A DNA stretch of 18,316 bases from Candidatus Poribacteria bacterium (GTDB lineage Bacteria; Poribacteria; WGA-4E; WGA-3G). The notes below the pieces were generated by a model that had not been told where the DNA came from, made no database searches, and saw nothing but the letters and a program-made list of their open reading frames with translations. The translations under genes were made by a program, and so were the position numbers. Where the stretch lies: assembly GCA_009845505.1 (NCBI GenBank), contig VXZL01000496.1, positions 1 through 18,316 of the forward strand. Direction: 5' to 3'. Below, piece after piece: positions 8,735 through 18,290 of the stretch (positions within the stretch are counted from its first letter, which is position 1; each line of letters begins with the position of its first letter).

Positions 8735-9355
8735 TCATTCGGCTACACTGAGTCTACAGATTGTTTTCGCCGCGTCATCGCCGTACCAGAGTGCAGTGCC
8801 ATCCCACGTAAGCCCATGCGGTTCGCCGGGACATGTGACAGTCCTAAGAACCTCACCAGATTCAGGGTGGATTCGGTAAATGATACAGTCATTTGTATCA
8901 GCGTTCCAAAGTGCCTCTCCATCCCAAGCGAGTCCGTGGGCGCGACCACCGGGTGTCGGCATTTCAGCAAGGATTTCACCGGTTTCGGGACCCTGCTTCA
9001 CGAAACGACTGGTGTTCATGTCAACACTCCAGAGGTGTTCACCATCCCACGCCAATCCGTGTGGTCCTTCACCTGGCGATGAAAATTGTGTAACGACTTC
9101 AAGTGTTGGCACCGTGAGTTTGTAGAAAGTCTGCTGCCAGATGCTGTTATACCAGAGATATTCACCATCCGCTTCTAAACCAGATGAACCCGGGAAAGAG
9201 GGTGAAAGTGTTAATTCAACTTCCCCTGTCTGAGGGTGGATTTTGTGAATAGGACCGGGACCTTCAACACTCCAGAGTGACGTTCCCTGCCATGCGAGCC
9301 CATTTGTGCCAGCACCGGGAGCCGGTATTTGATGTTCAGATGTTACTTCACGCAT
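8735..9355 (-). CDS. Small cytoplasmic beta-propeller-like repeat protein
   Basis: A 206-residue protein with five evenly spaced motifs of the type HGLAWDGExLW, at residues 18, 58, 99, 140 and 180 (spacing about 41). Between them lie Y-x-I-x-P-x-T/S-G-E-V strands. This resembles NHL/SMP-30/glutaminyl-cyclase-like propeller repeats. There is no signal peptide or membrane segment, so it is probably cytoplasmic. Five blades is a short propeller, so it may dimerise or be an open solenoid. I cannot name a catalytic site. Its ATG lies inside the end of queG (8-base overlap ATGCGTGA), which suggests translational coupling. A link to tRNA queuosine metabolism is not shown by the sequence. Confidence 0.75.
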   Translation of the reverse strand: MREVTSEHQIPAPGAGTNGLAWQGTSLWSVEGPGPIHKIHPQTGEVELTLSPSFPGSSGLEADGEYLWYNSIWQQTFYKLTVPTLEVVTQFSSPGEGPHGLAWDGEHLWSVDMNTSRFVKQGPETGEILAEMPTPGGRAHGLAWDGEALWNADTNDCIIYRIHPESGEVLRTVTCPGEPHGLTWDGTALWYGDDAAKTICRLSVAE

Positions 9356-10508
9356 TTTTATCGTTTCTCCGTGATGACCGTTCTGTTTCTAAAAGTGCGT
9401 CCTGAATTTCAGTAATAACCTCTGTTTGCGTCTCAACAGTTAATCGCGTCTGTAATATTCGTTTGGCAGCGTCGCCTCCGATTCTCCCTAACGCCCATGC
9501 GGCATGGCTTCGGATTAGAGGTTCGTCATCGGCTAATGCGCCTTTGAGTGCCGGAATAGCACGCCGTTCTCCCCAATTACCGATGGCAACAAGTACGTTT
9601 CGCAAGAACCCACGGCGTTTGGCGCGTTTGATAGGACTCCCTTTGAAACGACTGCTAAACTCTTGCTGCGTCATGCCAATAAGCGACAGCAGCTTCGGGG
9701 CAAGGTTTCCGTCGCGTGGATGGAACCCTGGCTCGGTTGTCGGAACAGCTTTACTGTTCCATGGACAAACCTCTTGGCAGATGTCGCACCCAAAAATGAG
9801 GTTCCCCATTTTAGGGCGAAGTTGCTTCGGAATGCTCTCCTTTAGTTCGATGGTGAGGTAGGAGATACAGAGCCGAGAATCAAGCAGGTTCGGCTCAACA
9901 ATTGCATCTGTCGGGCATTCCTCAATACAGCGTGTACAAGTGCCGCAACTTCCGCGGAGCGCCGGTCCCTCTGATTCCAAGACAGCACCCACAAGAATCT
10001 CAGAGAGAAAATACCACGAACCCGACCGCCAATGAATCAGGTTCGTATTCTTACCAATCCAACCGATACCTGCCTTTTGGGCATACTCTCTTTCGATAAC
10101 GGGAGCGGTATCCACACAGACCCGGGTCTTTAATTCACCTTCAGCAGCCTGCTTAATAAATTCAACGAGTTCTACAAGCCGTTCACGAATAAGTTCGTGA
10201 TAGTCATCGCCCCAAGCATACCGAGAAATCTGCCCGCGTCCGGGATCCTCAGCAAGTGCTTTTGGTGGATCCAACGTATAATAGTTCATTGCGAGACTAA
10301 TAACAGATTTTGCCTCTGCGAGGAGTTGACGGACATCCGTTTTGAGAGGAAGATGCTTCTCAAGATAGTGCATCTCCCCGGCATATCCGTTTTTCACCCA
10401 CTGCTGGTAGCGTGCGATTGTTTCACTGTGTGCTGCGGGTATAATTCCGACGAGTTCAAATCCGAGTTCATGTGCGCGCACTCGAATTTGTTCCGTTAGC
10501 GTTGCCAT
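9348..10508 (-). CDS. queG: Epoxyqueuosine reductase QueG with C-terminal HEAT-like repeats
   Basis: A 386-residue cobalamin-dependent iron-sulfur enzyme that reduces epoxyqueuosine to queuosine at position 34 of tRNAs, the last step of Q synthesis. The catalytic Asp is D133 in CVDTAPVIER. Two 4Fe-4S cluster motifs are complete: C188, C191, C194 and C198 in CGTCTRCIEECP, then C214 and C241, C244, C248 in CDICQEVCPW. Residues 295-370 carry HEAT-like repeats (SHAAWALGRIGG), as in long QueG forms. The ATG at 10508 shares its A with the TAA stop of pheA (TAATG), so I prefer it to an in-frame GTG at 10556 that would lie inside pheA. No strong Shine-Dalgarno is seen, consistent with coupling to pheA. 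No other queuosine gene is in the window. Confidence 0.95.
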   Translation of the reverse strand: MATLTEQIRVRAHELGFELVGIIPAAHSETIARYQQWVKNGYAGEMHYLEKHLPLKTDVRQLLAEAKSVISLAMNYYTLDPPKALAEDPGRGQISRYAWGDDYHELIRERLVELVEFIKQAAEGELKTRVCVDTAPVIEREYAQKAGIGWIGKNTNLIHWRSGSWYFLSEILVGAVLESEGPALRGSCGTCTRCIEECPTDAIVEPNLLDSRLCISYLTIELKESIPKQLRPKMGNLIFGCDICQEVCPWNSKAVPTTEPGFHPRDGNLAPKLLSLIGMTQQEFSSRFKGSPIKRAKRRGFLRNVLVAIGNWGERRAIPALKGALADDEPLIRSHAAWALGRIGGDAAKRILQTRLTVETQTEVITEIQDALLETERSSRRNDKNA

Positions 10509-11575
10509 TACAGAGTCCCGCGCGGATAAGAGCCGAGAACATTGACCTCCCGACACAATTCTTTAAGCTGCGCAAGTGCGACGATGACGCGTTCATCGGC
10601 AATATGCCCTTCCATCTCAGCAAAGAAGATATACTCCCAAGGTTTGGTTCGCGATGGCAGAGATTCCAGATAACTCAGATTCAACTGTGCTTGGTCTAAA
10701 ATACCGAGGGCTTGGTGTAGTGCCCCAATCTTGTCAGGAATTGCGAAAAAGAGCGATGTCCGATCATAGCCACTTGGGTCTGGCATACACTTTCCGATGA
10801 CGAAGAATCGGGTTGTGTTATCAGGTTCATCCATAATGGAGTTTGCAACGATTGGGACCTGATAAATTTCGCTTGCGAGTTCACTTGCGATTGCAGCAGC
10901 GGCGGGTTCTTGTGCAGCCCGTCGCGCCGCCTCAGACGTACTCACCACCTCGACCTGTTCAGCGTTACTGAGATAGCGACTCAGCCATGTCTTACACTGT
11001 GCGAAAGGTTGGGGGTGTGAGTAGACGCACCGAATTTCTGTGAGGGATGCCTTCGACAAAAGGTGCTGTTTTATGGGCTGGAATGTCTCTGCACAAATCC
11101 ACAACGGCGTGCGTTGGAAACGTTCCAAAACATCGCGAACGGTCCCTTGTACTGAATTTTCAATAGCCACTACACCGTAGTCGGCTCTACCGGTTTCGAC
11201 CTCTGTGAAAATGTCAGCCTGTGGACGGACCGGGACCAACTCAGTTGATGCCCCGAAATGAGAGAGTGCTGCCACGTGTCCGAAACTGCCGACGGGACCG
11301 AGGAAAGCGACGCGCTCTGATTCCTGCAAAGAACGGGAAGCAGATAAAATCTCCGTCCAGATTGCTTCCAGCGCGGTTTCAGGAAACTCACCTTGATTCT
11401 GCGCTTTCAAACGTTCAATAATCATCTTCTGCCGATTCGGAACGTAGACTTGCGCGCCTCCTGTTTCTGCTTTCGCCGCACCGACCTGCTTGGAAATTTT
11501 AGCCCGTTTCTGTAGAAGGCGTAAAATCTGGTCGTCAATCTCGTTAATCTGGTCACGGTACTTTGTCAATTCCAA
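10508..11575 (-). CDS. pheA: Bifunctional chorismate mutase / prephenate dehydratase (P-protein)
   Basis: A 355-residue cytoplasmic enzyme for phenylalanine synthesis: chorismate to prephenate to phenylpyruvate. Residues 1-85 are an AroQ-type chorismate mutase (R7, R24, K35 and E54 align with expected active-site positions). Residues 88-262 are the prephenate dehydratase domain, with GPVGSFGHVAA (93-103) and the catalytic TTRF motif at 254-257. Residues 272-350 are an ACT domain with YLESLPSR and the EGH element, which normally binds phenylalanine for feedback inhibition. The start is a TTG, with GGAG ten bases upstream. A second TTG lies two codons on. Length is typical. It precedes queG with a one-base overlap. 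Confidence 0.95.
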   Translation of the reverse strand: MELTKYRDQINEIDDQILRLLQKRAKISKQVGAAKAETGGAQVYVPNRQKMIIERLKAQNQGEFPETALEAIWTEILSASRSLQESERVAFLGPVGSFGHVAALSHFGASTELVPVRPQADIFTEVETGRADYGVVAIENSVQGTVRDVLERFQRTPLWICAETFQPIKQHLLSKASLTEIRCVYSHPQPFAQCKTWLSRYLSNAEQVEVVSTSEAARRAAQEPAAAAIASELASEIYQVPIVANSIMDEPDNTTRFFVIGKCMPDPSGYDRTSLFFAIPDKIGALHQALGILDQAQLNLSYLESLPSRTKPWEYIFFAEMEGHIADERVIVALAQLKELCREVNVLGSYPRGTL

Positions 11576-11594: not shown

Positions 11595-11664
11595 ATCGCT
11601 AATCACTAATCGCTGACCACGGTTCGCGAAGAGCGGTTTGCGGTCAGCGGTTCGCGAAAAGCCA
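11595..11664. repeat. Heptanucleotide array between the selenoprotein candidate and pheA
   Basis: Ten seven-base registers run from 11595 to 11664; eight have GC at the same phase (11598, 11612, 11626, 11633, 11640, 11647, 11654, 11661). Units include TTTGCGG, TCAGCGG and TTCGCGA. The 11-mer CGGTTCGCGAA occurs at 11620-11630 and 11648-11658. CGCTGACC (11611-11618) and GGTCAGCG (11642-11649) form a perfect 8-bp inverted repeat that extends by three more pairs, so the transcript can fold. Confidence 0.7.
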
Positions 11665-11665
11665 A

Positions 11666-11911
11666 CTAACGATCCAATTTTTTCATAGCAGCGATCATCT
11701 CATCGTCTGAGGGGTTATTTTGTACCATCTCAACGAACTCCTCAGCACTTACCTTGTGTTCCTCCAGGAACAACTTATCTTGGGGTCACGGATAGATATA
11801 CTCACCGATAATGCCCTGCAGCTTCGCATTGGCTTTATCGGCAATTCTGGCTAACCACGGGATATCCCCGATAATCATATCCCGGTGCCGTGGTTTCCAA
11901 TCAAGAGCCAT
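11666..11911 (-). CDS. Candidate selenoprotein, DUF5069-like, with in-frame UGA at codon 42
   Basis: An 81-codon reading frame from ATG 11911 to TAG 11668-11666, crossed by a single TGA at 11788-11786 (codon 42). An excellent AGGAGGT site is eight bases before the ATG. Upstream of the UGA: IPWLARIADKANAKLQGIIGEYIYP. Downstream: PQDKLFLEEHKVSAEEFVEM, then PSDDEMIAAMKKLDR. This follows the pattern I recall for DUF5069 proteins (LPRLIDKARA, then GEYxYxCPLD), where Cys fills the UGA position. The product has no Cys, so Sec would be the only redox-active residue. A SECIS-like hairpin lies just after the UGA. Function is unknown. The alternative is a gene broken by a single change TGT/TGC to TGA; intact sequence after the stop argues against an old pseudogene. 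It lies between the UPF0182 gene and pheA, with heptad arrays on both sides. Confidence 0.8.
11757..11772 (-). promoter_or_regulatory. Candidate bacterial SECIS hairpin
   Basis: In the mRNA, UGUUCC (11772-11767) and GGAACA (11762-11757) form a perfect six-base-pair stem with loop UGGA (11766-11763). Nineteen bases separate the UGA from the loop. The bacterial SECIS pattern, as I know it from fdhF and related genes, is a hairpin in the coding region just after the UGA with a G in the first two loop positions, about 16-37 bases away. Both criteria are met. The hairpin lies wholly within codons, so chance folding is possible. Confidence 0.7.
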
Positions 11912-11917
11912 GAGTTT

Positions 11918-11925
11918 CACCTCCT
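11918..11925 (-). promoter_or_regulatory. Strong ribosome binding site of the selenoprotein candidate
   Basis: AGGAGGTG on the minus strand, preceded by a run of A residues, with eight bases between GGAGG and ATG 11911. It is among the best Shine-Dalgarno sites in the window. A maintained site of this quality argues that the UGA-containing frame is translated. Confidence 0.85.
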
Positions 11926-11930
11926 TTTTT

Positions 11931-11966
11931 TAGCAATTAGCAGTCAGCAGTCAGCAGTCAGCAAGA
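11931..11966. repeat. Heptanucleotide array upstream of the selenoprotein candidate
   Basis: Five seven-base units with GC in fixed phase (11933, 11940, 11947, 11954, 11961). Three are identical, AGCAGTC, at 11939-11959. The same TCAGCRG-type unit appears in the array on the other side of the gene. It lies between the UPF0182 stop and the ribosome binding site, where it would be in the leader or promoter region. Confidence 0.8.
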
Positions 11967-12007: not shown

Positions 12008-15000
12008 TTACTGTGTATTTCCCTCAAGTTGACGTAAAGTGTCCTCTAAAAGTTGAAGGACGCGTCCATATTCTGCCCAGTCGCCAGCGCGTTGTGCGTC
12101 TTGCGCTTGATTAAAATAGCGACTGGCTTGTTGAATAAGACCTATCAGTGAGGTCTGATTTGTACCGGTGTCAGTTGCGATTTCAGTCGTTGGTGTCGTA
12201 GGAGTGGCTTGAAGCGTCGTTCTCTGTCCGAACATCTTGACGAGTGCTTCCTCCAGACTCTCACCCCAGACGACTTCATTGCCGTATCCAATAACGACTC
12301 TCCGCAATTCGGGAATAGCGGTTTTCTCATCTTCAGATTGTATGTAGATAGGCTCAACATAAAGCAGAGAGTCATTCATTGGAAGAATCAGGAGATTACC
12401 GCGTAAAACCCGGGAGCCTTGCGTATTCCAGAGACTAATCTGTTGAGAAATATCGGGTTCTTGGCTAATAAAGTTCTCAACTTGCATAGGTCCAGCGACC
12501 TGTTTTCCCTTCGGGAAGCGGTAAACGAGGAGTTGTCCGTATTGGGGCAGATCACACCGAGCGGCGAGCCATGCTGTCAAATTCGGTTTATTGAGTGGCG
12601 TGTATGGCAACATCAACATGAATTCGGCTCTCTCTTGCCCGGGCAGTCTGATAACCACATAGTAAGGCTCAACGGGTTGCCCATTTACGCCGGAACTTTG
12701 TGGTACCTGTTGTGGTAGAAACGGGTTCCTTTGCTGCGGTTGGACAACTTGCCGCGTCTGTGCGTCTGTATTGTCATAGAGTTCCCTGCCGATCTCCCAT
12801 TTATCTTCACCCGCATAAAAGGTTACAGGGTCTTTCATGTGATAATCTTGGTAGACGCGCGCTTGGATGAGGAACATAGAGGTCGGATAGCGGATATGCG
12901 TTTTGAGTTCCTCCGGCATGTCTTCAAAGGATTTGAAAAGGTCTGGGAAGATTCTGCGATAACATTCTGCAATAGGGTCTTGTTCTCGTTCCATGACGTA
13001 AAAATCGACAGAACCGTCGTAAGCGTCTACAACGACTTTAACAGAATTTCGGATATAGTTGCCCCAGGGTTCAGCATTTCGCTGCGTATTTGCAATCTGC
13101 CGTCTTCTTTCGCTAACGAATTCTTCCATAGAAACGGCATAGGGATAGCGATGTGTAATGGTATAGGCATCAATTAGCCAAACAAGCCGTCCCTTATAGA
13201 TAATGACGTAGGGATCACCGTCATAGCGCAAGAAGGGTGCGATTTTCTGTACGCGTTCCCTGATATTCCGATCATAGAGAATTTTACTTGTTGATGAAAT
13301 TTCACCCGGTAAGACGAAGTTAATCTCGTTATTGAATTTGAGCATATACACGAGTTTTCGCCAGAAAGAACTTAGCGGCACGCCGCCTTGCCCTTGATAG
13401 GCATATTCGGCATACTGCTGTCCCTCTTGGGGATAATCAAATTCAAGCCCTTGGCTTCGATTTGGGTGTACGATAACGTAACGATTCGTGCGTTCACCAT
13501 AATAGATACGGGGTCCTGGGGTTTCACCAAACCGGTGTTGCCACTGTTCATCGTAGTCAATAGGCGGCAAGCCTTGAATATACATGTGCGGTTTCCCGTC
13601 AACAATTTCGTTAACAGGGCTGACGACTGCGCCGTATCCGTGTGTATAGGTATAGGTTTGCTTATACCAATCATTTCTGATTTCCACGGGGAGTTCGTTG
13701 ATGTTGAGTTCCCGTCCGGCGAGCATCACCTGTCGAATTTCACCATCAACGGTATAACGATCGATATCCACATCATTGAAGTCGTATTGCGATCTTAATT
13801 CTTGGAGTTGACGGAAAGTTCTGCGTAAGGGTCGCCAATCCCAGAGACGGATGCTGTTAAAAACAGGGGCATTCTCCTGACTCCTTATGTCCTCATAACT
13901 GAGTTGCTCCGTGAGGGGATATTCCTGTTCTGTCACGGTGTTTTCAGCCAAGCCGTAAGCTTGAAGCGTCGCTTTGATATTATAGTTGATGTAATCCGCT
14001 TCCAACACCTGTTTTCTGGGTTCTACCTGCCATCTTTGTATAGCGACAGGGTAGGCTTGTCCAAGGAAACCGGCAATTAGGAATACAGCGAACCCACCGA
14101 AAGCAAGCGTGTTGCTTTTGAGAAAGACGCTAACAATAAAAACCAATGCGCAAAGCACTGTGATACCGAGCATAATCCACAATACTGGAAGCCGTGCTTG
14201 TATCGCGGCGTATCCACCGCCCCCCCGTACCACGTCATTAGAGGTATACAGCAGATCATACATGACAAATTGATAGTTCCACGCTCGACAGAGGAGCGTT
14301 ATCCCGACAAGCGTGAACAGATGCGCTTTGACATTGAAAGGTGGGCGGAATCGAAACTGGCTGGTATCCCCAGTGACTAGCCCGTGGAAAAAGTAGATGA
14401 CGAGTGCGAATATGGTCACCAACAAGAAAATCCCGAAAAGCGTTCCACAAATGTAACGCCAGAACGGCATTTCAAAAACGTAGTAGGTGACATCCTTGTT
14501 GAAAATTGGGTCGCGTGCGGGTGAAGTGAAAAACGCTTTTTGCCCGGCTTCTATCTGAACGGACGTATTTAATCGAATCGCGCTGCTCAACACAGCCTCA
14601 ACGCGGGCTTCCTGATTTGTGCCATCAACCTGAACATTTATCGGATCCCCAACCTTTATATTTTTCGCTTGAAGTTCCAAGGGTGTGACGGGAATTTCGT
14701 TAGAATCCAAATTTGCTTCTACAATAATAGGTGTAGCAGCGGGAAAAACGAGTTCATCGGCGTTTTGAAAACGTAGATAAATTTCCCATCGGTCACTGGC
14801 TGTGTAGCCCATCAAGATACTAAACAGTACTGCGAGAAGCGTTAGCCCCCCATAAATTAACCTTCGCGTAGCACCCGGATCGTCTGTGGCACCGTCTGTG
14901 AAGTCTGCGCCTCCCATAAAAGCCGGGCTGAGATAGGCGGGTGTGAATCGGTAGATGATGAAAAGATTCGTTAAGAGGATTACCAAATAACAGAGCCCAA

Positions 15001-15172
15001 CAACTGCCCCGACACCGATTTTTGTTGTGAGAATTTTAGCGTAAACGCCCCAATAGTCAACTACCTTAAACCATAGGTAATCCGGGTAAAGGTTCACCCA
15101 GGTAGCAACGAGTCCTCCGATAATTGCGAGGACGACGACAGTGGGAATCAAGCGTTTGGTTCGTGAATCCAT
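12008..15172 (-). CDS. UPF0182 family large membrane protein
   Basis: A 1054-residue protein of the UPF0182 (COG1615) family, whose function is not established. About seven membrane segments lie in the first 380 residues (near 8-26, 53-74, 104-123, 237-263, 283-303, 328-351 and 355-378). The rest is a large, probably extracytoplasmic domain with family landmarks: YVIVHPNRSQGLEFDYP, YKGRLVWLIDAYTITHRYPYA, VVVDAYDGSVDFYV, DPIAECYRRIFPDLF, HIRYP and FMLMLPYTPLNKPNLTAWLAA. The tail (1005-1050) is a short helical Gln-rich segment typical of the family. Residues about 139-219 look like an inserted beta-rich domain between the third and fourth membrane segments. The ATG at 15172 has AAGGA six bases upstream. 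It precedes the selenoprotein candidate, across a 96-base gap. Confidence 0.9.
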   Translation of the reverse strand: MDSRTKRLIPTVVVLAIIGGLVATWVNLYPDYLWFKVVDYWGVYAKILTTKIGVGAVVGLCYLVILLTNLFIIYRFTPAYLSPAFMGGADFTDGATDDPGATRRLIYGGLTLLAVLFSILMGYTASDRWEIYLRFQNADELVFPAATPIIVEANLDSNEIPVTPLELQAKNIKVGDPINVQVDGTNQEARVEAVLSSAIRLNTSVQIEAGQKAFFTSPARDPIFNKDVTYYVFEMPFWRYICGTLFGIFLLVTIFALVIYFFHGLVTGDTSQFRFRPPFNVKAHLFTLVGITLLCRAWNYQFVMYDLLYTSNDVVRGGGGYAAIQARLPVLWIMLGITVLCALVFIVSVFLKSNTLAFGGFAVFLIAGFLGQAYPVAIQRWQVEPRKQVLEADYINYNIKATLQAYGLAENTVTEQEYPLTEQLSYEDIRSQENAPVFNSIRLWDWRPLRRTFRQLQELRSQYDFNDVDIDRYTVDGEIRQVMLAGRELNINELPVEIRNDWYKQTYTYTHGYGAVVSPVNEIVDGKPHMYIQGLPPIDYDEQWQHRFGETPGPRIYYGERTNRYVIVHPNRSQGLEFDYPQEGQQYAEYAYQGQGGVPLSSFWRKLVYMLKFNNEINFVLPGEISSTSKILYDRNIRERVQKIAPFLRYDGDPYVIIYKGRLVWLIDAYTITHRYPYAVSMEEFVSERRRQIANTQRNAEPWGNYIRNSVKVVVDAYDGSVDFYVMEREQDPIAECYRRIFPDLFKSFEDMPEELKTHIRYPTSMFLIQARVYQDYHMKDPVTFYAGEDKWEIGRELYDNTDAQTRQVVQPQQRNPFLPQQVPQSSGVNGQPVEPYYVVIRLPGQERAEFMLMLPYTPLNKPNLTAWLAARCDLPQYGQLLVYRFPKGKQVAGPMQVENFISQEPDISQQISLWNTQGSRVLRGNLLILPMNDSLLYVEPIYIQSEDEKTAIPELRRVVIGYGNEVVWGESLEEALVKMFGQRTTLQATPTTPTTEIATDTGTNQTSLIGLIQQASRYFNQAQDAQRAGDWAEYGRVLQLLEDTLRQLEGNTQ

Positions 15173-15308: not shown

Positions 15309-18290
15309 TTAAAAGGCTTGTCCGAGTCCGAGGTGGTACTTGATACCGGGTTCTAATCCGGTGAGATCGGTCAATCGTGCTGCGGCGAAATCTACCGAAA
15401 ACACACCGAGTTGCAGTCGAAGCCCAATTCCGATGGAGGCTTTAACATCGTCAAGCCGCAGTCGATTGTTTTCCCAAACAAAGAGCGTGAAGGGGTTCTC
15501 TGGTCCGTACTGCCAATCCGACCATGCGCCTCCCATATCGGCAAAGAGGATGCCGCGAATGCCGCCGAGGGTCCATGGAACGGGCCATCCGAAGTGCAGT
15601 ATATCTATGAAGGGAATACGGACTTCCAAGTTGAGGAGCCCGATGCGCGTGCCGACTAAGGCTTCATAATCATAACCCCGTATTGTGTCAATGCCGCCGA
15701 GATAGAAGTAGGATTGGTCAGCACCAAAGTTACTGCCGAGCAATAACCGCGCTGCAATAGTGGAACGTCTTCCGAGTCCGAAGTAGCGGCGTGCGTCAAA
15801 AATAACGTTTGTCAGTGCGAGTTCGCTTCCAAGTGCGGGGAAGGATTGCTCAAGTTCGATGCGGTAGCGCGAGCCGGTATAAGGTTCCCACTCCCGCCAC
15901 ATCGTTGTGTCCCCAACAAAGGCGAGAGAGCCAACAGTGAGTAGCCCTCTATCGTCCTCATAGGGATCGAGAGGTTCCCTTGTTTGGAAGTTAAAGGAAA
16001 ACGGTTTCGAGTACATCGAGAATGCCAAATCGAGGCGGTGGTATCTGTCAAATGGATAGTTGAGATAGGCGCCGAGCCCAGTAATCCGCTGTAAAATGCC
16101 GCGTCTGCTCTGGATACCGCCTAAAATATGGTATTCATGATAGTTATAAATCATCGCGCCAATATCGGTTCGGTGTGTCAGAAATCCGTACTGTGCGATG
16201 AAATCCGGTGCGAGATAGCTGGACTGATTCATCACACTGACCCCAACGCGATGGTTGCCGAGCATATCACTACCGACGATTTGTACCGAGCTTCTCAGGA
16301 TACCGTCGGCACCGAAAGTAAAATCTGGAAAGATTGCATCCAAAACGAAAGAGGATCGTGTACTGTACTTCCGCTTAGCAATCCTATAATTCTCTGGTTC
16401 TTCAGCCGTCAAAATCGCGGAGGGTTCCTCGACATCTGCGACTTCAATTTTCTCCTCAATGGTTTTGGACGTGTCCATGAGACAGACGTCATATTTTCCG
16501 TTCTGGTATGCACTAAAGAGCAGGTGGTCTCTATCCGGTGACAGACTCGGATTAAAACAGCCCGTCATGATGTTGGTAAGACGTGTAAGTTCAGCCTTTA
16601 AAGATGCGTCTGCAGATTTCTGCGTTTCCTCTGGGGATACGAGTAACTCGGCATCTGCGGGACTATCAGTCTGCTGGACATCGTGCGTTTCTTGTGTGGT
16701 ATCCGTGTTTTCCTGTGCGCTGGTTTTCTCCACAATCTTAAGTTCATAGACATCGTAAATCCCTTGGGCATCCGAGCAGAAAAGGATTGATTCCGTCCCT
16801 GGTGTCCACGTTGGACTGATAGCGTTATAGGTATTATCGGTCAGGACGCGTTCGGTTTCGCTATTAAGGTCTATAAGGACGAGCCTATTTTTCCCGCCGC
16901 GCTCAGAGGCGTAGAGGATCTTATCAGCTGTTGGATGCCATGAGGGGTGTGTGTCGTTGAAAGGATCGAAAGTGAGCCGCCTGATTTCACCGGTCAACAA
17001 TTCAATAATATAGAGGTCTGTCTGTCCGTCTTTGAGTGCAGCAAAGATGATACGTTCACCGCTCCCATCATAGTCTGGAGACGTAGCGTTATCAAAATCG
17101 AGTTCAAAGTATTGCGTCAGCTCCTCTGTCAAAATGTTGACTTCAAGGAGATAGTTTGCATCGTGATATTTAGCGATGAAGGCAATTTTGTCCCCATCGG
17201 GTGCCCATGCGAGGCTTCTGCCAAACCCCCCGAAATCCGTACGGATCTCCTCATACTTCTCGCGGAAAAGTCGCTTGGTGACCCGTTTGATGCGTTCACC
17301 GGTTTTTGCAGACATGAGGACAATCTCAAGGAATCCTTCATTTCCTGTGACATAAGCGATAATATCGCCGCTTGGGGACCAGATGGGTTTAATATTATGC
17401 GAGTATTTCGATTTCTCGGTCAAATTCTTCGAGACGAGGTCTGGCAACTCCCTATCCTCAATAAGGGGCCAGTACCGCTTTCGTACCGTCTGTCTCCACG
17501 CCTTATCAAATTCCTCAAGTTCTATACCGAGTACTTCTATGAAAACCTGGTTGATATCCTTTGTCCGACTTTGTCGTAAGCCTTGCAAAATTTCAGCGAT
17601 TTTTTCCCGTCCATAAGTTTCTGTGAGATATGCTACCGCCAATTGCCCTAACTTATATCCAACAAACGGTGAGCTGAGTCGATTGAAGTTGTGGAGTTGC
17701 GGCAAGGGTACAATATTGTTATTCATACTTGCGTCGCGAATCACCATTTCGCCGATGGCATCGTTATCTTCGGCAAAGTAGTCTGCCATTCCTTCTATGA
17801 ACCAGATCGGTGCGGAATAGAGAAACTCGCCGCTATAGATACGGGCATGCGGTTTCTGATAGATGATGTCGTACTGGAAAATATGGATGAGTTCGTGGAA
17901 GATCACTTCTCGAAACGCTTCAAGCGAACCGGTGAAAGGTATAACGATGCGATGTTTAAAGAGTTCAGCGAATCCGCCGATGCCTTCGTGGAGTTCTTGG
18001 AGGATTATGTTGGTTTCCTGAAAATCTTTGTGGGATTTGTAAAGGATCAGAGGCGTTCTGTCTCGGAGCTCATGTTCAAAATCAGCACTGTGTTGCTCGT
18101 AAGCCTCCTCAGCAATCGCGGCCATGATCGGAACAAGTTTTGCTTCACTCGGATAATAGTAGATATCAAAATGCTCTGTTTTATGGATGTGCCACTCGAA
18201 ACGTTGTGCTGTAATCTTATTTTTTCCGAAACTTTGTGCCCACGTGACACACGGAATAGCGAATAGCAGACCGCAAATAGCAAATAGCAA
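15309..18290 (-). CDS. Metalloprotease / TolB-type propeller / outer-membrane barrel fusion
   Basis: A 993-residue protein as counted from a TTG at 18290; the frame stays open to the window edge, so the true start may lie outside. The signal peptide ends near TWA-QS (residues 17-20). Residues 35-280 are a gluzincin-type peptidase domain: HELIH at 132-136 with third ligand E166 in FIEGMADYF, like the peptidase MA family. Residues 295-610 hold six PD40/TolB-like blades (SPSGDIIAYVTG, APDGDKIAFIA, HPTADKILYAS, TPGTESILFCS, SPDRDHLLFSA). An acidic, Thr/Gln-rich linker (523-566) interrupts the last two. Residues 645-993 resemble a BamA/D15-type barrel with IRGYD at 870-874 and a terminal Phe. It is probably an outer-membrane protein with a periplasmic protease and propeller; substrate unknown. 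Confidence 0.85.
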   Translation of the reverse strand: MLFAICGLLFAIPCVTWAQSFGKNKITAQRFEWHIHKTEHFDIYYYPSEAKLVPIMAAIAEEAYEQHSADFEHELRDRTPLILYKSHKDFQETNIILQELHEGIGGFAELFKHRIVIPFTGSLEAFREVIFHELIHIFQYDIIYQKPHARIYSGEFLYSAPIWFIEGMADYFAEDNDAIGEMVIRDASMNNNIVPLPQLHNFNRLSSPFVGYKLGQLAVAYLTETYGREKIAEILQGLRQSRTKDINQVFIEVLGIELEEFDKAWRQTVRKRYWPLIEDRELPDLVSKNLTEKSKYSHNIKPIWSPSGDIIAYVTGNEGFLEIVLMSAKTGERIKRVTKRLFREKYEEIRTDFGGFGRSLAWAPDGDKIAFIAKYHDANYLLEVNILTEELTQYFELDFDNATSPDYDGSGERIIFAALKDGQTDLYIIELLTGEIRRLTFDPFNDTHPSWHPTADKILYASERGGKNRLVLIDLNSETERVLTDNTYNAISPTWTPGTESILFCSDAQGIYDVYELKIVEKTSAQENTDTTQETHDVQQTDSPADAELLVSPEETQKSADASLKAELTRLTNIMTGCFNPSLSPDRDHLLFSAYQNGKYDVCLMDTSKTIEEKIEVADVEEPSAILTAEEPENYRIAKRKYSTRSSFVLDAIFPDFTFGADGILRSSVQIVGSDMLGNHRVGVSVMNQSSYLAPDFIAQYGFLTHRTDIGAMIYNYHEYHILGGIQSRRGILQRITGLGAYLNYPFDRYHRLDLAFSMYSKPFSFNFQTREPLDPYEDDRGLLTVGSLAFVGDTTMWREWEPYTGSRYRIELEQSFPALGSELALTNVIFDARRYFGLGRRSTIAARLLLGSNFGADQSYFYLGGIDTIRGYDYEALVGTRIGLLNLEVRIPFIDILHFGWPVPWTLGGIRGILFADMGGAWSDWQYGPENPFTLFVWENNRLRLDDVKASIGIGLRLQLGVFSVDFAAARLTDLTGLEPGIKYHLGLGQAF

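Follow-up and report, generated by a model that had tools for sequence, protein, structure and literature searches.

The window analysed here, 18,316 nucleotides of Candidatus Poribacteria DNA (contig VXZL01000496.1), carries on its minus strand a short gene whose frame holds a single in-frame TGA, lying between a pheA-type gene and a gene of the UPF0182 family (Table 1). The frame runs through 41 sense codons, the TGA and 39 further sense codons to a TAG without any other stop, and the 81-residue product, with the TGA read as selenocysteine, contains no Cys. A first-pass annotation had given precisely these codon numbers and coordinates, leaving out the strand; the strong Shine-Dalgarno sequence it reported is AGGAGGT (11925-11919), and the lack of Cys it noted is true of the window's 81 residues.

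Table 1. Features of the DUF5069 locus and its conserved neighbours in the window
Feature	Positions	Strand	Details
Candidate Sec-DUF5069 gene	11666..11911	-	ATG 11911-11909; TGA codon 42 at 11788-11786; TAG 11668-11666; 81 residues
Shine-Dalgarno sequence	11919..11925	-	AGGAGGT, 5' of the Sec-DUF5069 ATG
In-frame UGA codon	11786..11788	-	at the conserved Cys place of DUF5069
SECIS-like hairpin (putative)	11756..11773	-	core GUUCC-UGGA-GGAAC 11771-11758; loop UGGA 11766-11763; 6 of 7 consensus pairs possible in the window
pheA-type gene	10508..11575	-	chorismate mutase, prephenate dehydratase, ACT (Pfam); conserved downstream neighbour
UPF0182 gene	12008..15172	-	Pfam; conserved upstream neighbour

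The two intergenic gaps that flank the gene contain short tandem repeats of 14-15 nt (11620-11662 and 11932-11959). Elsewhere in the window, at 15309-18290, a single frame encodes a peptidase MA-like part together with WD40-like repeats and an Omp85 domain.

A DUF5069 frame with UGA at the place of a conserved cysteine

The first-pass annotation called the frame DUF5069-like, and a Pfam profile search agrees: read through the TGA, it matches PF16798 with 46.8 bits against a cut-off of 27, the match spanning the TGA (residues 7-78, equivalent to profile positions 4-75 of 133). The full 133-position length is seemingly not required for the family, since equally short Cys homologs bear the Pfam label. 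An NCBIfam scan of the read-through product returned no match at E up to 1. Longer frames that match DUF5069, about 290-580 residues in size, occur repeatedly in both Poribacteria and Latescibacterota, and the window's own genome has a 576-residue frame with three tandem DUF5069 domains (G000 contig C513:922-2172, L102).

Aligned with the window's product, the database homologs (the best 120 of 219 listed, leaving aside P0013 to P0018, six entries that are truncated, partial or frameshifted) carry Cys at position 42 in 102 cases and Trp in 18, in keeping with the annotation's statement that DUF5069 proteins have Cys-Pro-x-Asp at the place of the UGA. The conserved motif is Y-x-Y-P-C-P-x-D, in which Sec would replace Cys in the window's product, and the residues invariant in 65 aligned sequences include Arg22, Asp25, Lys26, Tyr38, Tyr40, Pro41, the Cys/Sec and Asp45. 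A solved relative with the Cys form, the uncharacterised protein 3omd, covers the same N-terminal half of the domain (profile positions 7-82) and has its Cys in the aligned motif Y-N-C-P-L-D; the literature matches listed for 3OMD seem unrelated by title and abstract. Compared with Cys-form DUF5069, the window's product would thus have Sec for Cys, and has 81 residues against a 133-position domain.

None of the contigs behind the 18 Trp homologs is longer than 1,237 bases, for which reason we infer that their Trp is a TGA translated under another code. The gene models P0013 to P0016 terminate precisely at the UGA, whilst P0018 starts past it, so that, much as the annotation expected of normal gene finders, the entries listed miss the UGA form, being cut at this codon or giving Trp in its place. 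None of the DUF5069 homologs, among the matches listed, has a selenoprotein label in its name.

Amongst 84 Poribacterial genomes, an ortholog with one TGA at this codon is present in 71 (72 loci, G057 having two copies) and one with Cys in 6, whilst in 7 no ortholog was found; six of the UGA-form genomes are single-contig. A scan of named records, a set that overlaps with the unnamed Poribacterial one, gave 60 loci with TGA and 20 with TGC or TGT among the best 80 of 248 relatives. All 60 of the former are Poribacterial and the latter comprise five from Poribacteria and 15 others, every one of these 15 with Cys, although the scan was biased against UGA forms in other phyla since one of its two search patterns included Cys. 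Latescibacterota were searched because the Trp homologs P0117 and P0127 looked unlike Poribacteria, and 64 genomes yielded 43 matches (E up to 1e-18), of which 36 carry a single TGA and 7 have Cys instead; the phylum is taken here as grouped by the search database, one member (L188) being recorded under another phylum's name. Nine loci from other phyla have Cys at the aligned place. Both the Cys-bearing homologs and the relatives with TGA that the annotation proposed to look for are therefore at hand, and the near relatives of this isolate share its TGA. Its view of Sec as the sole redox residue stands for the window's product but not for some Latescibacterota UGA rows, which have one further Cys.

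Downstream of the TGA the frame stays open for 39 to 51 codons in each of the 72 UGA rows from Poribacteria, and all 71 of these rows with sequence ahead of the start carry GGAGG or GAGGT no more than 20 nt from it. In 70 Poribacterial rows (2415 pairs, with usable dS in 1185 before the UGA and 1673 after it), dN/dS as a ratio of means is 0.059 before the UGA and 0.121 after it. The stretch past the UGA is under purifying selection as protein, and neither the frameshift nor the loss of selection that the annotation named as contrary signs is seen. Two orthologs, L078 and L079 (G013 and G014), carry a Lys/Ser-rich C-terminal extension closed by TGA, which can only be a real stop there, and this gene therefore uses UGA both ways; L088 likewise has TGA as its terminal codon.

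A tree of 162 of 230 rows, built after near-copies were dropped and with the Sec/Cys column masked, requires at least nine Sec/Cys changes, with 84 of its 159 inner branches unresolved. A branch with support 67 sets the Poribacterial Sec rows apart, the Cys rows P0024 and P0025 standing in the same wider fork, and the Latescibacterota Sec rows do not form one group. This suggests repeated exchange of Sec and Cys in DUF5069, as far as the aligned sequences go.

The putative SECIS hairpin and the selenocysteine machinery

Bacterial SECIS elements are hairpins situated just 3' of the UGA, with a G in the apical loop, and both features are present here. The core starts 14 nt 3' of the UGA, within the coding sequence. 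The motif TTCCTGGA is found in all 108 UGA rows, at a distance from the UGA of 15 nt in 107 of them and of 18 nt in a single row with a codon insertion, and TTCCTGGAGGAA in 105 of them (Poribacteria 72/72, Latescibacterota 33/36). Among the 13 Cys rows, TTCCTGGAGGAA occurs in none (0/6 in Poribacteria) and TTCCTGGA stands at the place in one. The Poribacterial core GUUCC/GGAAC is exact in 71 of 72 rows, the remaining one (L090) being AUUCC/GGAAU, a double compensating change. In Latescibacterota, where TTCCTGGA is kept in 36/36 UGA rows, the outer arms are, for example, CAC/GUG, AAG/CUU or CGC/GCG, so that the outer pairs differ between the clades in a compensating way; one UGA row of that phylum has a C-U mismatch, a U-G pair occurs in three, and in roughly half of them the outermost pair is missing.

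Codon usage points to the same place. In 70 Poribacterial rows (L090 and L094 omitted), all 4 conserved degenerate sites at codons +6 to +9 keep a single codon, against 1 of 38 elsewhere (Fisher 4e-5), and in 36 Latescibacterota rows the figures are 3/3 against 0/21 (Fisher 5e-4).

Across 100 distinct rows (68 + 32), 91.4% of the cells of the seven-pair stem can pair, against 80.0% when shuffled, and the covariation score is 0.229 against a shuffled 0.060 (0 of 500 as high) and 0.113 for the best slid version, bearing in mind that relatedness of the rows can lift such scores above shuffles even where there is no structure. The third pair, which is GC in 86 rows, CG in 13, AU in 1 and broken in none, is the strongest single sign of the predicted hairpin, whilst the outermost pair is unpaired in 48 rows and the next in 11. 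Two other measures on these 100 rows, the number of pairs altered at both partners (3) and that of additional pair types (8), do not rise above shuffles (439 and 450 of 500 as high). Within Poribacteria, where most stem pairs are invariant, pair types are again not above shuffles (483/500) and a stem slid by +2 scores 0.106, more than the 0.042 of the real one, so that covariation inside this phylum is not convincing as evidence of a hairpin. The folding energy of the window's hairpin is no better than that of shuffles (z 0.42), the minimum-energy fold being a different one, and the case for the hairpin accordingly draws on codon invariance and on the exchange of pairs between clades. An Rfam scan of the window gave no family at gathering score.

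The first-pass annotation had also asked whether the genome encodes the Sec machinery. In the window's genome, tRNA-Sec (anticodon TCA) adjoins selB on contig C335 and selA is found with 588.8 bits; selD, the remaining gene it had named, was not found in this draft, but the same-species genome G055 has it, likewise with an in-frame UGA. SelB has the winged-helix domains SelB-wing_2 and wing_3, which in SelB proteins act in hairpin binding. In 75 of 84 genomes, the same-species one included, selD is above cut-off with one in-frame TGA each, and the UGA was seen in 20 of the 20 selD loci read. UGA-form Poribacteria have tRNA-Sec in 63/71 genomes and selB in 67/71; no tRNA-Sec was found in the other 8 and no selB in the other 4, and in G032 (73% complete) tRNA-Sec, selB and a UGA-containing selD were all not found. 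In Latescibacterota, tRNA-Sec accompanies the UGA form in 34 of 36 genomes as against 8 of 28 others (Fisher P 2.5e-8, uncorrected for relatedness). Cys-form genomes have it as well (5/6 in Poribacteria, 4/7 in Latescibacterota), for which other selenoproteins such as selD could account. One study reports SelA and SelB for most of its sponge symbiont bins (PMC5649159).

Decoding of the UGA

The open frame, its homology, the exchange of UGA with Cys, the conserved hairpin and the presence of the machinery support, by sequence, the case for a selenoprotein. Very probably, then, the DUF5069 gene is a bacterial selenoprotein gene whose UGA codon 42 is read as Sec by way of the downstream in-frame hairpin, and the annotation's reading of the codon as selenocysteine draws its support from the exchange, the hairpin and the machinery. 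The hairpin, about 15 nt 3' of the UGA, would recruit SelB carrying Sec-tRNA(Sec), and the ribosome would on this account insert Sec at codon 42. The product would be an 81-residue DUF5069 protein in which Sec, standing in for the conserved Cys, is the only selenol or thiol. Sec42, close to the invariant Asp45, may serve as nucleophile or redox residue, and, as the window's product has no second Cys, it would presumably work with an outside thiol or reductase.

Insertion of Cys or Trp at the UGA, through a suppressor tRNA or a reassigned one, would fit the existence of Cys homologs, the Trp shown by 18 of the 120 database homologs and the opal tRNA-Cys present in some bacteria. However, TGA is the real stop of 2 of the 11 window genes examined (8735-9355 and queG), so that UGA is not reassigned genome-wide, and it is an ordinary stop in 3 of 72 orthologs as well. 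In addition, a suppressor would not be expected to leave a hairpin kept in UGA rows and not in Cys rows, the genome has tRNA-Sec(TCA), selB and selA, and the 102 non-Trp homologs are all Cys, whilst the 18 with Trp fit wrong-code calls on short contigs. We regard such decoding as very improbable.

It is less credible still that the UGA is a true stop, yielding a 41-residue peptide followed by a restart of the C-terminal piece at the conserved GGAGG. The hairpin does contain this GGAGG, and the gene models that halt at the UGA or begin after it would agree, but the rows inspected by eye share no start codon at the right distance past it, which speaks against reinitiation there; moreover, the domain match crosses the UGA, the Cys homologs are one frame and the exchange partner is Cys. 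As for a sequencing error or pseudogene, which a single in-frame stop in one draft assembly might suggest, it is refuted by the number of genomes with the same TGA (72 Poribacterial and 36 Latescibacterota loci, with six Poribacterial genomes single-contig) and is opposed by the dN/dS of 0.12 after the UGA, and we give it hardly any credence.

DUF5069 among selenoproteins, and its neighbours

With selenocysteine as the preferred reading, the gene resembles known bacterial selenoprotein genes such as selD of the same phylum in having an in-frame UGA at a Cys site together with SelB and tRNA-Sec, and in several selD loci a sequence resembling a hairpin, its loop containing GG, can be made out by eye at a similar distance. 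It differs from such genes in that the window's product has no CxxU or UxxC and its family does not figure in the 119-entry table discussed below. Sec/Cys exchange among homologs is shared with thioredoxin-like selenoproteins; unlike these, the window's product lacks both a CxxC-type motif and any Cys, and its Pfam match is DUF5069 and no thioredoxin family.

The annotation knew of no described selenoprotein in this family, and the search ended likewise. As far as its accessible text extends, the 2026 Table 1 of 119 prokaryotic selenoprotein families, which gives NCBIfam model numbers for many entries, does not list DUF5069 (PMC13188914). Neither DUF5069 nor PF16798 is named in the main texts of the literature searched, which takes in few subscription papers, so that an earlier mention in others or in supplements is possible. 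That literature has no co-mention of Poribacteria and selenoprotein, whilst Poribacteria and selenocysteine occur together in PMC5649159 and PMC9999580, and Latescibacter and selenoprotein in two papers.

Since the same UGA arrangement recurs in a second phylum, DUF5069 is almost certainly a new selenoprotein family, one that, to judge from its genes, includes selenium proteins in two phyla (71 of 84 Poribacterial genomes and, in Latescibacterota, 36 of the 43 genomes that yielded the gene). The UGA/Cys exchange points to the conserved Cys of DUF5069 as its likely active residue and offers a first handle on the family. On balance we lean towards DUF5069 being a family of redox or nucleophilic enzymes with one active-site Cys/Sec outside thioredoxin-type motifs, whose Sec form would be established in the selenoproteomes of two phyla and whose Cys and Sec would have been repeatedly exchanged. 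If so, this exchange would make the Sec and Cys orthologs that lie beside the same genes a natural experiment on why selenium is used.

The pheA gene lies downstream of the DUF5069 gene in 56 of 67 loci (65 of them Poribacterial), five Cys-form Poribacteria included, and UPF0182 upstream of it in 55 of the 67, none of Cys form. In Latescibacterota the window's neighbours were not found beside the DUF5069 gene, save for one weak PhyH-like match, and in one group of that phylum an oxidoreductase-like gene lies downstream (16 of the 52 loci searched for neighbours, which comprise 43 from Latescibacterota and 9 from other phyla). As the neighbours differ between the two phyla, they do not allow the function of DUF5069 to be inferred. 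In the two loci scanned for domains, a gene with an NAD-binding oxidoreductase domain stands directly 3' of DUF5069, beside the Sec form in one (L217:1727-2638) and the Cys form in the other (L213:1743-2645).
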